From: Burkholderia metallica
GTDB lineage: Bacteria > Pseudomonadota > Gammaproteobacteria > Burkholderiales > Burkholderiaceae
DNA length: 64,000 nucleotides
NCBI RefSeq assembly: GCF_902832845.1
Contig: NZ_CADFDB010000020.1
Span: 16,736-80,735 of the forward strand
Reading direction: 5' to 3'
Shown: in pieces, positions 9,433-39,850 of the stretch
Numbering within the stretch: the first letter of the stretch is position 1
Layout: each line of letters starts with the position of its first letter
Notes under the pieces: model-generated
What the model was told of the DNA's origin: nothing
The model's database searches: none
The model's input: the letters and a program-made list of their open reading frames with translations, nothing else
Program-made: the position numbers and the translations under genes

Positions 9433-12400
9433 TTACTTCGCGACGACGACCGGAATCCCCTTCAGCATCCCCGCGCCCTTCATCTCGTCGAGCGCGTGCT
9501 GCACGGCCGCGCTCGTCGCCGCGTCGATGCCGAGCTGCAGCGCGAGTTCGCGCTCCGCGCGCTTCACGCCGGCCAGGTTGCGCACCTTCACGTGACCGAA
9601 GCCGCGCACGCGGGCGTGCAGGTCGGCCAGTTGCACGACCTGCGCGGCATTGCCGGCCGTCATCGCGGCGAACGCACGCGTGATCGTCGTTTCGTAGTCG
9701 TCGGCGAGCGCGCGCTCCATCTTCCGCTCGACGGTGCGGCCGAACGGATCGAGCCACGTGCCGCGCAGGCTGCGCACGCGCGCGAGCATGCCGAACACCG
9801 GCCACATCCACTGGCCGAACACGCGCTTTTTCGGCACGCTGCCGTCGCGGCCGACCTTCGCGACCGTCGGCGGCGCCAGGTTGAACTTCACGCGGTACGC
9901 GTGCCCCGGCACGCCTTCGAACTGCGCTTCGAGCGCGGTGCGGAACGCGTCGTCCGTGTACAGCCGCGCGACCTCGTATTCGTCCTTCACCGCGAGCAGC
10001 CGGTAGAACGTCGTCGCGACCGCGCGTGTCAGCGCGTCGTCGCCCTTCGCGGCCGCCGCGTTCACGAGCGCCCGGTAGCGCTCGACGTAGCGCGCGCCGC
10101 CGTATGCGTTCAGACGCGCTTCGCGATCGGCGATCAGCTCGGCGAGCGTCTCCGGTGCAGCATGCACGGCCACCGCGTGCCGCGCGTTCCACAACGCGTC
10201 GAGGCCCGCCGCGTCGCCGGCCGCCATCCGGCCGATCGAGAACGCGAGCTTGTTCATCGGCACCGCGACGTTGTTCAGCTCGATCGCGCGCATCATCGCC
10301 GCGAGCGACACCGGCACGAGGCCGAGCTGCCACGCGTAGCCGAGCATCAGGATGTTCGCGCCGATCGAGTCGCCGAGGAACTTTGCGGCGAGCGCCTGCG
10401 CATCGCAGCTCGACAGGTAGCCGTCGCCGGCCGCGTGATGCATCTTTTCGAGCAGCGCATCCGCGTGCAGGTTCGCATCGGGGTTCTGCACGAACGACGC
10501 GTTCGGGATCCGGTGCGTGTTGACGACGATCCGCGTGCGCTCGTGGCGCACCGTCTGCAGCGCCTCGGCGCTCGCGCCGACGACCATGTCGCACGCGAGC
10601 AGCACGTCGGCCTGCTGCGTGTCGATGCGCACCTGGTTCAGCCACCGGTCGCTCGACGCGATCCGCACGAACGACAGCACCGAGCCGCCCTTCTGCGCGA
10701 AGCCCATGAAGTCGAGCACCGACGCGCTCTTGCCTTCGAGGTGCGCGGCCATGCTGATCAGCGCGCCCACCGTCACGACGCCGGTGCCGCCGACGCCCGT
10801 CACGAGCATGTCGAACGGCGCCGCATCGAGATGCGTGGCCGGCACCGGCAGCGCATCGACGCGCGCGGCGAGCGCCGCTTCGTCGAACGCGGCACCGGCC
10901 GCCTTCTTCAGCGCCGCGCCTTCGAGCGTCACGAAGCTCGGGCAGAAGCCGTTCACGCACGAGTAGTCCTTGTTGCACGACGACTGGTCGATGCGGCGCT
11001 TGCGGCCGAGCGGCGTCTCGAGCGGCTCGACCGACAGGCAGTTCGACTGCACGCCGCAGTCGCCGCAGCCTTCGCACACCGCGTCGTTGATGAACAGGCG
11101 CTTGTCCGGGTCGGGGAATTCGCCTTTCTTGCGGCGGCGGCGCTTCTCGGCCGCGCAGGTCTGATCGTAGATCAGCACGGTGACGCCCGGCGTCTCGCGC
11201 AGCTCGCGCTGCACGGTGTCGAGTTCGCTGCGGTGATGGAACGTCGTGCCGGTCGGGAACTGGCCGTGATGGCCGTCGTACTTCTCCGGTTCGTCGGACA
11301 CGACGACGAAGCGCGACACGCCTTCCGCCTCGACCTGCCGCGCGATCTGCGGCACCGAGATGCTGCCGTCGACCGGCTGGCCGCCCGTCATCGCGACCGC
11401 GTCGTTGTAGAGGATCTTGTACGTGATGTTCGCTTTCGCGGCCACCGCCTGGCGGATCGCGAGGATGCCCGAGTGGAAGTAGGTGCCGTCGCCAAGGTTC
11501 TGGAACACGTGCTTCGTGTTGGTGAACATCGCATGCGCGGCCCAGTCGACGCCCTCGCCGCCCATCTGGATCAGCCCCGTCGTGTCGCGCTCCATCCAGG
11601 ACGCCATGAAGTGGCAGCCGATGCCCGCCTGCGCGATCGAGCCTTCCGGCACCTTCGTCGACGTGTTGTGCGGGCAGCCCGAGCAGAAGTACGGCGTGCG
11701 CTTCACCGCGTCGGCTTCGTTCGACAGGATCTGCGGCGCGACGAGATCGACGACGCGCTCGCGGCGATCGAGCGCCGGCTTGTGGCGTGCGAGCCATTCG
11801 GCGAACACCGGCAGGATGCGCGACGGGCGCAGCTCGCCGAGCTCGGACAGCAGGCACGCGCCGGCCGCATCGTGCTTGCCGAGCACGCGCGGGCGCGCGC
11901 CTTCCGTGCGGTTGTACAGGTAGTCCTTGATCTGCTGCTCGATGACGGGGCCCTTCTCCTCGATCACGAGCACTTCGGCGAGCCCGTCGACGAAGGTGTC
12001 GAGCCGTGTCGTTTCGAGCGGATACGACAGGCCGACCTTGTAGATCCGCACGCCGGCCGCGTCGAGGTCGGCCACCGTCAGGTCGAGGCGGCGCAGCGCT
12101 TCCATCAGGTCGAGGTGCGCCTTGCCGCAGGTGACGATACCGACGTTCGCCTGTGCGCTCGGTGCGATCCACTTGTCGATGCTGTTGGCGCGCGCGAAAT
12201 GGCGCACCGCGTCGAGCTTCGCGGCGAGCCGCGCCTCGATCGTCAGGCTCGGCAGGTCGGGCCAGCGGTTGTGCAGGCCGCCGGCCGGCGGCGTGAAGCC
12301 TTCCGGCGCGGGCCAGCGCGTCTGCAGCGCGTCGAGGTCGACGGTGGAGCCCGACTCGACCGTTTCCGAGATCGCCTTGAAGCCGACCCACGCGCCCGAA

Positions 12401-13005
12401 TAGCGCGACAGCGCCCAGCCGTACAGGCCGAATTCGAGCATGTCGGCGATGTTCGCCGGATTCACGACCGGCATGTGCCACGCGATCATCGCGAAGTCGC
12501 TCTGGTGCGGCATCGACGACGACACGCAACCGTGGTCGTCGCCCGCGACGACGAGCACGCCGCCGTGCGGCGACGAACCGTACGCGTTGCCGTGCTTCAG
12601 CGCGTCGCCCGCGCGATCGACGCCCGGGCCCTTGCCGTACCACATCGCATACACGCCTTCGACCGTGCGTTCGGGATCGGCTTCCACGCGCTGCGTGCCG
12701 AGCACCGCCGTGCCGCCGAGTTCCTCGTTGATCGCGGGCAGGAAGCGCACGCCGCCGGCGTCGAGCAGTTTCTTCGCCTTCCACAGCTGCTGGTCGACCA
12801 TCCCGAGCGGCGACCCGCGGTAGCCGCTGACGAAGCCGGCCGTATTCAGGCCCTGTTCGGCGTCGACGGTGCGCTGCATCAGCAGCAGGCGGACCAGCGC
12901 CTGCGTGCCGGTCAGGAAGATCCGGCCGCGCGTCGCGGTCAGGTTGTCGGTGAGGCGGTAGTCGGACAGGGAGGGCGTGCCGTCGACGGGCAGGCGGGCG
13001 GTCAT
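9433..13005 (-). CDS. Indolepyruvate ferredoxin oxidoreductase, fused subunits
   Basis: Thiamine-diphosphate and iron-sulfur enzyme that oxidatively decarboxylates indolepyruvate and other aryl pyruvates to aryl-acyl-CoA, passing electrons to ferredoxin. The 1190-residue chain joins an N-terminal pyruvate-ferredoxin-type domain (GFVSGYRGSPLG near 50), a central TPP-binding half (FCSGCPHNTS and GIGCHFMASWM), a cysteine cluster (CEGCGDCG and CNKDYSCVNGFC, roughly 640-690) and a C-terminal gamma-type domain (VTGVGGTGVVTVG). Such long fusions are usual in proteobacteria. I chose the ATG at 13005 (MTARLPVDG) because AGGAGA lies 8 nt upstream; an ATG at 13044 is poorer. A role in aromatic amino acid catabolism is inferred. 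Confidence 0.93.
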   Translation of the reverse strand: MTARLPVDGTPSLSDYRLTDNLTATRGRIFLTGTQALVRLLLMQRTVDAEQGLNTAGFVSGYRGSPLGMVDQQLWKAKKLLDAGGVRFLPAINEELGGTAVLGTQRVEADPERTVEGVYAMWYGKGPGVDRAGDALKHGNAYGSSPHGGVLVVAGDDHGCVSSSMPHQSDFAMIAWHMPVVNPANIADMLEFGLYGWALSRYSGAWVGFKAISETVESGSTVDLDALQTRWPAPEGFTPPAGGLHNRWPDLPSLTIEARLAAKLDAVRHFARANSIDKWIAPSAQANVGIVTCGKAHLDLMEALRRLDLTVADLDAAGVRIYKVGLSYPLETTRLDTFVDGLAEVLVIEEKGPVIEQQIKDYLYNRTEGARPRVLGKHDAAGACLLSELGELRPSRILPVFAEWLARHKPALDRRERVVDLVAPQILSNEADAVKRTPYFCSGCPHNTSTKVPEGSIAQAGIGCHFMASWMERDTTGLIQMGGEGVDWAAHAMFTNTKHVFQNLGDGTYFHSGILAIRQAVAAKANITYKILYNDAVAMTGGQPVDGSISVPQIARQVEAEGVSRFVVVSDEPEKYDGHHGQFPTGTTFHHRSELDTVQRELRETPGVTVLIYDQTCAAEKRRRRKKGEFPDPDKRLFINDAVCEGCGDCGVQSNCLSVEPLETPLGRKRRIDQSSCNKDYSCVNGFCPSFVTLEGAALKKAAGAAFDEAALAARVDALPVPATHLDAAPFDMLVTGVGGTGVVTVGALISMAAHLEGKSASVLDFMGFAQKGGSVLSFVRIASSDRWLNQVRIDTQQADVLLACDMVVGASAEALQTVRHERTRIVVNTHRIPNASFVQNPDANLHADALLEKMHHAAGDGYLSSCDAQALAAKFLGDSIGANILMLGYAWQLGLVPVSLAAMMRAIELNNVAVPMNKLAFSIGRMAAGDAAGLDALWNARHAVAVHAAPETLAELIADREARLNAYGGARYVERYRALVNAAAAKGDDALTRAVATTFYRLLAVKDEYEVARLYTDDAFRTALEAQFEGVPGHAYRVKFNLAPPTVAKVGRDGSVPKKRVFGQWMWPVFGMLARVRSLRGTWLDPFGRTVERKMERALADDYETTITRAFAAMTAGNAAQVVQLADLHARVRGFGHVKVRNLAGVKRAERELALQLGIDAATSAAVQHALDEMKGAGMLKGIPVVVAK

Positions 13006-13113
13006 GGGGGGTGTCTCCTGATTGTGCTGTTCTGGGCTGCGCACCGGGGCGTCGGGCGACGCCGGCCGGAGGCGGCTGGATGGCTCTATTTTTTCGCGGG
13101 GAGACGAGAAAGT

Positions 13114-13153: not shown

Positions 13154-13212
13154 CCGCGTAGGTTTCGGGAGGGAATTGAGAGAATTTTCGCGCCGGGTGG
13201 TGGGCGGCGGTT

Positions 13213-13320
13213 GGGCGGTTGGGCGGTTGGGCGGTTGGGCGGTTGGGCGGTTGGGCGGTTGGGCGGTTGGGCGGTTGGGCGGTTGGGCGGTTGGGCGGTT
13301 GGGCGGTTGGGCGGTTGGGC
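13213..13320. repeat. Octamer tandem repeat GGGCGGTT, 13.5 copies
   Basis: Thirteen and a half exact head-to-tail copies of GGGCGGTT. The plus strand is a regular series of GGG and GG runs split by C and TT, a pattern able to form G-quadruplexes. All six frames stay open and give Pro/Asn/Arg or Gly/Trp-rich junk peptides, which I do not believe are proteins. The repeat lies about 200 bp upstream of the oxidoreductase start and about 120 bp before the 89-bp repeat array. Octamer arrays change copy number easily, so the length should differ between strains. Confidence 0.95.
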
Positions 13321-13437
13321 GAGATGGGTGGGCGCTTGCCTCGACATCGCGGGTGACGAGCGGGACGTCGGCCGCTGGTACGGCGGCGGGTGCTCGGGGC
13401 CCGTGCGACAAGGTTTCGGCGGGGAAGCGGCGGCGTG

Positions 13438-14983
13438 CTCACCGATGGAATGCACAGCGTTCGGAGTGATTGCGGGCGCGGGATGTCCACAATGCCGGGG
13501 CTGCCGGCCGAGCGGGCGATCGCGCTCACCGTTCGATCGCACAGGGTTTCGAGTCGCGTCGTGCGCCGGATGTCCACACCTCGATCTGTCCGCCGTTCAT
13601 GCGGACGCCGACGCTCACCGTCGAAATTCACAGCGCGACGAGTCGATGCCGGCAGGAGATATCCACACCGCTGGATCGCTGCGTGGCCGCTGCGACGTTC
13701 GCGCTCAGCGTCCGGATGCACAGGGGCGTGAGTCGATTCGGCGGCAGGATATCCACATGGCCGTGCGGCCTTCGTGCGCGCCGTTGGGCAGTCGAGCGAG
13801 ACGCCGGTATGGGTGTGGATATCGCCACCCGCGGACACTCAAAGCCCTGTGAATTTCGACGGTGAGTGATGGTACGGACTCGAACGAGGGTGCCGATTCT
13901 GGTGTGGACAGCCCGATCCGCGACGACTCCAAACACTGTGAATTTCAATGGTGAGCGACGGTACGCACTCGAACAAGGGTACCGAATCGGGTGTGGATAG
14001 CCCGATCCGCGACGACTCTGAACACTGTGAATTTCAATGGTGAGCGAAGGTCCGCGCTCGAACAAGGGTGCCGAATCGGGTGTGGATCGCCCGATCCGCA
14101 ACAACTCTGAACACTGTGAATTCCAGCGGTGAGCGACGGCACGACGATCGAACCAGGGCACCGATTCGAGTGTGGACAACCCAACCCGAGAGCAGTCGAG
14201 ACGCTGTGAAATTCAACGGTGAGCGCGGGCGCCCTGTCGCACGAAGGCGGCACTTCGGCGCGATCAGCCGCCCCGCAACCACGCTGCGCCCCGTGGCTCC
14301 GGATTCGCGCAGACGCGGCCGAGCCGCACGCACGCGCCCCTCACCGCTGAAATACACAGCAGGTCGACTGGCTTCGGCGACCGGCTATCCAACTCGGTGC
14401 ACGGACTCGAACGGAACGCGCGATCGCGTGTGCGGTTAGAATGCGCAACCGCTCGAAGCGATGCCGAAGATCACGAACGGGCACGCCGCTCGATCGGCCA
14501 CCGACGCTCACCATTGAAATACACAGCGCTGCGAGTGAATTCGGCTGCGAAATATCCACACCGCGATACGCGCCCGGATCTATCGCCGACCCGCGCGTGC
14601 CGTTAGAATGCGCGGCGCCCCGAATTCCCGCGCGACGCGCGCTCGACTCCCGGAAGTCCACACCAGGCAAGCCTCACCCGCAATCGGTCGCCAACACTCA
14701 CCCTTCGGAAGCACAGCATTTTTCGTCGTTCGGAGTCGCGGTTGTCCACACCCTGCATCACGCTCACCGATGAAAAGCACAGCGTGGCGAGTGATTTGAG
14801 AGCCGGGATATCCACAACCGACGCCGCGCAGGAATGTGCGGCCAGCGCATCGGCAATGTCGGCTCATGCATCTGCCCGCGACCGGTGTCGAATGCCGGGA
14901 AGTCCCGCCGATGCTGGCTCCAGCGATACACTCACCGTTCGCATCCACAGCGTTTCGAGTGGTCGGGGGGCCGGTTGTCCACA
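13438..14983. repeat. Array of ~89-bp repeats with DnaA-box-like cores, in alternating orientation
   Basis: At least 14 copies of a degenerate unit. In forward sense each has CTCACCG, about 8 nt, CACAG, about 8 nt, GAGT, about 20 nt, then TCCACA, a core of about 56 bp. Forward cores start at 13438, 13525, 13614 and 13704; reverse cores span 13812-13866, 13901-13955, 13990-14044, 14079-14133 and 14169-14223; forward again at 14340 (poor), 14507, 14697, 14763 and 14931, with a decayed copy near 14600-14663. Spacing is 87-90 bp in the first two blocks, and spacers are also related (for example ACTCGAACAAGGGT in two adjacent reverse units). The TCCACA end matches the DnaA box TTATCCACA at 8 of 9 bases in nine copies and 7 of 9 in four. 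Since 89 is not a multiple of 3, successive units fall in different frames, arguing against coding. Confidence 0.9.
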
Positions 14984-15017
14984 TTCACGTCGCCGCTGAA
15001 GAGGCGCTCAGCCACCG

Positions 15018-39604: not shown

Positions 39605-39850
39605 CCGCCTCCCGCCTCCCGCTTCCCGCTTCCCCGCTTCCCCGCTTCCCCGCTTCCCCGCTTCCCCGCTTTCTCGCTTTCTCGCTTTCTCGCTTTCTCG
39701 CCTTCCCGCCTTCCCGCCTTCCCGCCGTTCCGCCTTCCCGCCTTCTCGCCTTCCCGCCTTCTCGCTTTCCCGCTTTCCCGCTTTCCCGCTTTCCCGCTTT
39801 CCCGCCGTTCCGCCTCCTACCTTCGCGCTTTCCCTTCCCGCCGCCCCGCT
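39605..39850. repeat. Pyrimidine-rich octamer array, about 24 or more degenerate copies
   Basis: Head-to-tail 8-bp units of the type CTTCCCCG, CTTTCTCG, CCTTCCCG and CTTTCCCG, arranged in runs of 4-6 identical copies. Almost all bases on the plus strand are C or T apart from the G ending each unit. The array lies between the BASS gene and the EAL-GGDEF gene, about 100 bp upstream of the latter's start. Frames are open and would give Pro/Leu/Ser/Arg-rich peptides; one is in phase with the EAL-GGDEF gene, so a copy-number change could join or separate them, but I take the region as non-coding. Confidence 0.92.

Follow-up and report, generated by a model that had tools for sequence, protein, structure and literature searches.

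Replication coordination in bacteria with several chromosomes is best known from Vibrio cholerae, through its crtS site, and datA is known as a locus of DnaA titration or inactivation. crtS combines GATC methylation sites with a putative DnaA box, and its action goes through the initiator of chromosome 2 (PMC6090056). In Burkholderia, CTGTGCA 7-mers have been described at the origins (Du et al. 2016, PMC4948915; mSphere 2020, PMC7364216), and the chromosome-2 iteron has been given as ctCCCGAAAAacCTCACCTtt, with another iteron cluster at a distance of 140 kb from the chromosome-2 origin (Du et al. 2016, PMC4948915). CACAG, an SMRT-verified m6A motif clustered at the origins of B. cenocepacia, is N6-methylated there at its fourth base by the type III methyltransferase BCAL3494 (PMC7364216). 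A crtS-like link between chromosomes 1 and 2 of B. cenocepacia has been called worth exploring (Du et al. 2016, PMC4948915). Further ‘timers’ besides crtS are called for in a 2026 survey, which also reports contact between ori2 and Chr1 in B. cepacia (PMC13342612).

The 64-kb stretch of B. metallica DNA analysed here (the window) contains a repeat array that we read, with a probability of roughly 55%, as a chromosome-1 array of composite protein-binding sites taking part in the control of chromosome-2 replication. With a model built from 58 units of this locus and related loci, a profile search of the window delimited 14 units at 13437–14984, nine on the plus strand and five on the minus strand, which bears out the ‘at least 14 copies’ of the initial annotation. 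The units score 38.3–58.1 bits (E 8e-11 or better), the next-best match in the window being 8.1 bits. The five minus-strand units form a single inverted block in the middle of the array, and Tandem Repeats Finder independently recovered this reverse block at 13811–14225 with a period of 89 and 4.7 copies. Start-to-start spacings are 87–90 on the left, 89–90 in the reverse block and 167, 190, 66 and 168 on the right. The array and its neighbours are as follows.

9433..13044, minus strand: left neighbour, indolepyruvate ferredoxin oxidoreductase family gene (NCBIfam NF009589; synteny), outside the array
13437..14984, nine units on plus and five on minus: whole array of 14 units (profile search)
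13437..13492, plus strand: unit 1, 55.9 bits
13523..13580, plus strand: unit 2, 52.7 bits
13611..13670, plus strand: unit 3, with box ATATCCACA, 52.1 bits
13702..13758, plus strand: unit 4, with box ATATCCACA, 38.3 bits
13812..13868, minus strand: unit 5, inverted block, 46.0 bits
13901..13957, minus strand: unit 6, inverted block, 51.6 bits
13990..14046, minus strand: unit 7, inverted block, 52.2 bits
14079..14135, minus strand: unit 8, inverted block, 44.2 bits
14170..14225, minus strand: unit 9, inverted block, 50.5 bits
14338..14391, plus strand: unit 10, right box degenerate, 44.1 bits
14504..14563, plus strand: unit 11, 53.1 bits
14694..14752, plus strand: unit 12, variant ending ...TTTTTCGTCGTT, 38.8 bits
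14760..14818, plus strand: unit 13, 52.9 bits
14928..14984, plus strand: unit 14, 58.1 bits
15018..15575, minus strand: right neighbour, hexapeptide-repeat acetyltransferase, outside the array

The tract is gene-free, as had been claimed: three reading frames cross the array with no Pfam match, and Rfam gave no match anywhere in the 64-kb window. The acetyltransferase lies at the right of seven array-bearing loci (one of them partial) and was not found in three others; it is not part of the element, because it adjoins the array in only some array-bearing genomes. Other simple features were noted in the window. A raw count gives 14 GATC sites within 13431–14990 (28 over both strands). Between the start of the oxidoreductase gene and the array, at 13206–13321, there are 14.5 perfect copies of the 8-mer GGCGGTTG; most of ten related loci scanned have no short repeat like this tract, and three have a different one. 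About 24 copies of a further 8-bp repeat, TCCCGCTT-like and of a length that is not a multiple of 3, lie at 39617–39805.

The initial annotation described an 89-bp unit. This period stands for the reverse block; the conserved part, in contrast, is a core of ~54 bp, and the spacings on the right side are irregular. The core consists of CTCACC, CACAG and CGAGT followed by a TCCACA box, so that the short blocks first listed (CTCACCG, CACAG, GAGT, TCCACA) are real and occur in the order given. Within the window, the cores have a mean pairwise identity of 68% over their first 35 nt, compared with 33% for the 27 nt after the core. A likeness of 85–90% between neighbours of the reverse block holds for part of it only, the identities over the core being 69, 89, 94 and 76%. 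Across 229 units from 20 loci the consensus is (A)C.CTCACCGTT(G)AAATNCACAGCGTTTCGAGT, then 14–15 free bases, then GG[A/T]T[A/G]TCCACA, and the G that precedes the right box lies at an offset of 44 from CTCACC in 160 units and of 43 in 63. The left half of the unit is conserved as strongly as the right box in units partly selected on both: the set was picked by the left motif (at most two mismatches) and by a right-box score, and its block conservation is partly built in, because the blocks themselves helped to choose the units. In a recount that left the tested block free, at loci nonetheless fetched by exact pattern, CACAG was found in 254 of 259 units and CTCACC in 254 of 278.

The comparison of the locus between strains suggested in the initial annotation is covered to the following extent: each fetched locus has 9–18 core matches, and the array occupies the same position in all eight array-bearing genomes whose flanks were compared. 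The arrays of different species correspond unit by unit, and the ...TTTTTCGTCGTT variant of unit 12 can be identified at the equivalent position in other species. Only some species have the middle block in inverted orientation, and near-identical units in the arrays of G011 and G018 point to recent local duplication in some arrays. The early impression of an old array holds, given this correspondence between species and its presence in 52 of 65 congeners. The array is thus old and structured, and it looks selected as DNA. Literature searches gave no named Burkholderia element with this layout. What is new beyond the initial annotation is a proposed tie of the array to the chromosome-2 origin, to DnaA and to CACAG methylation, for which CTCACC, CACAG and the right box give three lines of sequence evidence.

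CTCACC may point to the initiator of the second chromosome. A Rep_3 initiator gene of one type (RepA2) was present in 12 of the 12 genomes first tested, and in near-complete genomes repA2 lies on a 2.1–3.6 Mb contig other than the dnaA contig. RepA2 is a Rep_3 protein with WH1 and WH2 domains (PF01051/PF21205), whose best PDB match is the R6K pi protein (2nra, E 0.0072). PF10134 was rejected as chromosome-2 initiator, having matches in only 4 of 12 genomes. The repeats of the chromosome-2 origin are CCCGAAAAnnCTCACCT, which correspond to the c2 iteron of Du et al. (2016) and have CTCACC as their core word. In the 1400 nt upstream of repA2 in 21 array-bearing genomes, CTCACC is the top of 2080 6-mers (371 seen, 14.1 expected), and it is also the top 6-mer in four array-less chromosome-2 origins. 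It ranks 276 at the chromosome-3 origin, where it is not enriched; the chromosome-3 initiator was rejected as partner of the array on this ground, G001 moreover having the array and no Rep match of the chromosome-3 type. The other blocks behave differently at ori2, CGAGT not being enriched (rank 439 of 512) and TCCACA being enriched weakly (rank 158 of 2080).

Whole-unit comparisons extend this likeness. One ori2 site of the window's own genome matches the unit model with 15.4 bits (E 0.0013 in 74 kb). Scored with the array matrix, ori2 reaches 1.3 to 31.5 in the 21 array-bearing genomes and –1.3 to 15.0 in five array-less ones, against a background with a median of –9.9 and a maximum of 9.6 (73 chunks); much of this excess is due to CTCACC itself. 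Given CTCACC, 348 ori2 sites, of which those from related genomes are not independent, outscore 86 background sites with P = 0.007 (own genome alone, P = 0.08). These comparisons suggest a modest likeness between array and ori2 beyond CTCACC and CACAG. Strict co-occurrence of array and canonical iterons was considered and rejected, since three of five array-less genomes keep iterons: G014 has 14, G186 14 and G210 11, against two each in G006 and G166 (short stretch). The RepA2 proteins of five array-less congeners are at least 89.8% identical to that of G008; since array-less genomes keep a similar RepA2, chromosome 2 in itself does not require the array.

CACAG provides the second line. At ori2 of the 21 array-bearing genomes it is second among 512 5-mers (407 seen against 48.8 expected), and in the own genome it comes first; there are 14–23 copies per 1400 nt of ori2 in 21 of 21 array-bearing genomes versus about three expected. 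It comes fourth both at the ori2 of array-less genomes and at the origin of chromosome 3, and the individual array-less counts are 3, 13, 13 and 4 in four genomes and 2 in a fifth (622-nt stretch). In array units the position preceding CACAG is unconstrained (information 0.14), and so the conserved block is the methylation motif alone. Counting matches at E 1e-100 or better, a methyltransferase gene of the BCAL3494 type is present in 23 of 23 sampled genomes of the genus at 71% identity or more, and in 2 of 177 others at 40%; from its family, size and presence it is probably the BCAL3494 orthologue. Strict co-occurrence of array and CACAG methyltransferase was also rejected, the 23 genus genomes with the gene including four that are array-less. 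The array-less genomes G006, G166 and G210 (ori2 loci L047, L069 and L081) have no clear CACAG enrichment at ori2 (3, 2 in 622 nt, and 4) and the most diverged methyltransferase (71%); array-less G186 (86%) has 13 ori2 copies. The use of CACAG at ori2 may have arisen before the array, to judge from these distributions.

The third line concerns the right box, which lies ~45 bp after the start of CTCACC and in most cases differs from the DnaA box at one or two positions. Its commonest forms among the 229 units are ATATCCACA (95), TTGTCCACA (34) and ATGTCCACA (29), the first two being one mismatch and the third two mismatches from the DnaA box TTATCCACA. A G follows the right box in none of 250 distinct units and in 2 of 192 in another set; since the box is almost never followed by G, it does not form CACAG and is not itself methylatable. 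The box adjoining dnaA is TTATCCACAG, i.e. methylatable, in 11 of 11 dnaA loci. Each unit accordingly combines one methylatable site with a DnaA-like box that stays non-methylatable. All 21 third-replicon origin loci likewise conserve ATATCCACA, and there a following G is not consistently avoided, being present in 4 of the 21. In all 21 of these origins (L056–L065, L083–L091, L093, L094) ATATCCACA adjoins an iteron of the CCCATA type.

The place of the array relative to the chromosome-1 origin is stable. In 13 of 13 near-complete array-bearing assemblies it lies on the dnaA contig, 218–286 kb upstream of dnaA (mean 254); in the own draft assembly, array and dnaA are on different contigs (C20 and C6). 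A position tuned for synchronous termination was rejected, the array–dnaA distance showing no correlation with the value (L1–L2)/2 predicted from chromosome sizes (Spearman 0.23, P 0.44, 13 genomes). A second cluster of 2–5 units, or mini-array, occurs in at least nine genomes, those read having been picked because matches were listed there. It lies ~20–35 kb past dnaA in seven of the eight genomes with dnaA on the same contig, the eighth being G008 with 634 kb, and ~10–12 kb from the methyltransferase gene in G000, G008, G011, G020 and G021 (23 kb in G227). A few weak short matches to the array stretch fall outside the two clusters of chromosome 1, some of them on the contig of chromosome 2 (G001:C2:842313, G023:C2:830049, G019:C11:130190, G010:C1:182915 and others).

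The best reading of these sequence features is that the array is a set of candidate composite sites for RepA2, DnaA and CACAG methylation, which would couple chromosome-2 replication to chromosome 1. RepA2 would bind the CTCACC side of the unit and DnaA its right side, and the CACAG methylation state, altered at fork passage, would change the binding of both. A fork leaving ori1 would pass the mini-array near ori1 and then the main array ~250 kb away, doubling the number of sites. The new sites would be transiently under-methylated: CACAG is methylated on one strand only, so that a fork leaves each CACAG unmethylated on one sister. Doubled and under-methylated, the sites could alter how much RepA2, or which form of it, reaches ori2, and this changed supply would tie chromosome-2 initiation to chromosome-1 replication. 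The array might act as a trigger, as crtS does, or by titration, as sinks of the datA type do. A stronger version, a timer of the B. cepacia group in which CACAG methylation reports that the chromosome-1 fork has gone by, RepA2/DnaA binding is switched and ori2 is licensed, with the non-methylatable DnaA-like box beside the methylatable site as the switch, is put forward tentatively, the odds being against it. crtS activity is independent of the methylation of its GATC sites (PMC6090056), and since crtS works without it, the methylation step gains no support from that example.

The main rival, an unlikely one in our estimate, is a datA-like sink or inactivation locus for chromosome 1, which would bind DnaA and time ori1, the CTCACC likeness being accidental or due to an unrelated protein. 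It would account for the presence of one DnaA-like box per unit, for nine sites in the array within one mismatch of TTATCCACA, for the stable distance to dnaA and for the conservation of ATATCCACA at the third-replicon origin too. However, none of these nine sites is perfect and the array has no perfect TTATNCACA; a scan with the IHF consensus, WATCAANNNNTTR, gave no match in the array. Moreover, in units partly selected on both, the left half is conserved as strongly as the box, and its two main blocks, CTCACC and CACAG, rank first and second at ori2.

Another protein using CTCACC and CACAG both at ori2 and on chromosome 1, for example one that organises the nucleoid, anchors DNA, reads methylation or pairs the chromosomes, is distinctly improbable. 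We know of no such protein. Same-strand unit spacings come close to multiples of 11.1 bp (R 0.88 for the seven classes found two or more times, 126 of 5000 random sets being as good; R 0.65 when all 12 spacing classes are used), a weak hint, because of only seven spacing classes, that units may face the same side of the helix, as would suit a compact nucleoprotein. Scans with the SlmA and parS consensus sequences argue against this alternative, the array having no SlmA palindrome GTGAGTACTCAC within three mismatches and no parS-like palindrome; GTWWAC sites are also missing from it. Two published observations agree with such a protein, namely that CACAG is methylated and common to all origins (PMC7364216) and that Hi-C places ori2 in contact with a broad part of Chr1 in B. 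cepacia (PMC13342612).

Genomic context and distribution bear on a further alternative, a functionless remnant of an iteron plasmid origin that integrated and was then amplified by slippage, which we regard as highly improbable. The order Na+/H+ exchanger, indolepyruvate oxidoreductase, GST, K channel and binding protein is kept around the array in 8 of 8 array-bearing genomes, the sole exception being that no GST turned up in G022. All five array-less congeners examined have the same neighbours in succession, free of the array: the oxidoreductase, then ~0.3 kb, then the GST or K channel. In favour of a relic are this array-free order, the resemblance of the unit's words to iterons and the recent duplications in G011 and G018. 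Against a relic stand the conservation of cores and not of spacers, the unit identities kept across species, the same position in all eight genomes compared and the lack of a G after the box in 250 of 250 units.

Absence from all close relatives, the prospect raised against the array in the initial annotation, did not occur: a model search, whose filters may lose weak matches, found it in 52 of 65 Burkholderia genomes, the other 13 being without it. By DNA similarity the array is present in 23 of 25 genomes of the genus and in none of 16 from other families, and in a 200-genome family sample the model matches 19 of 23 genomes of the genus and 1 of 177 others. The lone outside match, in G118 (genus g24), is a single weak unit with E 1.3e-4. 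A pattern scan of named genomes, which may omit near relatives of the window's own genome, returned 55 stretches, all titled Burkholderia, mostly from species of the B. cepacia group. A single branch of the RepA2 tree sets the 21 array-bearing genomes apart, array-less G186 being adjacent to them. A single gain of the array is likely but not firm, because this branch has a support of 81/63 and occurs in 84% of bootstrap trees. The idea that other genera have a diverged array at this locus was rejected, a matrix scan of five other-genus stretches giving no unit; motif-by-motif reading and a repeat search of other-genus G046, G049 and G052 also gave no array.

A transcribed repeat RNA or small-RNA cluster, which the gene-free intergenic tract might accommodate, is scarcely credible, as no base pairs are predicted in the consensus fold of 58 aligned units (alifold), Rfam has no match and the orientation of units varies between species. 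Of the early proposal that any selection acts on DNA or RNA, only the DNA part thus stands, in line with cores that are kept and spacers that are not.

If the stronger version, a timer read out through CACAG methylation, is true, coupling of replication between chromosomes would occur outside Vibrio, having evolved independently on a Rep_3 initiator and a type III methyltransferase. The array is a concrete candidate that can be deleted and that makes a definite prediction about binding; it would also offer a function for the crowding of CACAG at Burkholderia origins.

The locus can be set beside four known systems. Like datA, it lies on the main chromosome, keeps a stable distance from the origin and has several DnaA-like boxes; it differs from datA in having no perfect box and no IHF consensus, and in that each of its boxes is coupled with a methylation site and an iteron word of ori2. 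The chromosome-2 iteron clusters have the same enrichment in CTCACC and CACAG. However, the iterons CCCGAAAAnnCTCACCT lie on chromosome 2, whereas the array units lie on chromosome 1 and carry CGAGT and a DnaA-like box; they are not the CCCGAAAAnnCTCACC units found next to repA2, as CTCACC is present with no CCCGAAAA upstream. The CTGTGCA 7-mers contain CACAG, the motif methylated in array units too, but the array unit is defined by CACAG with a free preceding base and not by the 7-mer. Compared by description, crtS and the array are both sites on the primary chromosome away from ori1, and the list of parts is similar, the array having CACAG methylation sites, a DnaA-like box and an ori2 iteron word. 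The differences are that crtS is one short site and the Burkholderia element an array of 9–18 core matches with a mini-array; that the initiator is not RctB but a protein assigned by its domains to Rep_3 (PF01051/PF21205); that the methylation motif is CACAG instead of GATC; that the position of the array does not track chromosome sizes; and that the array is absent from part of the genus. Membership of crtS is not claimed, and the best reading, by analogy, is that the array would work like the crtS of Vibrio.
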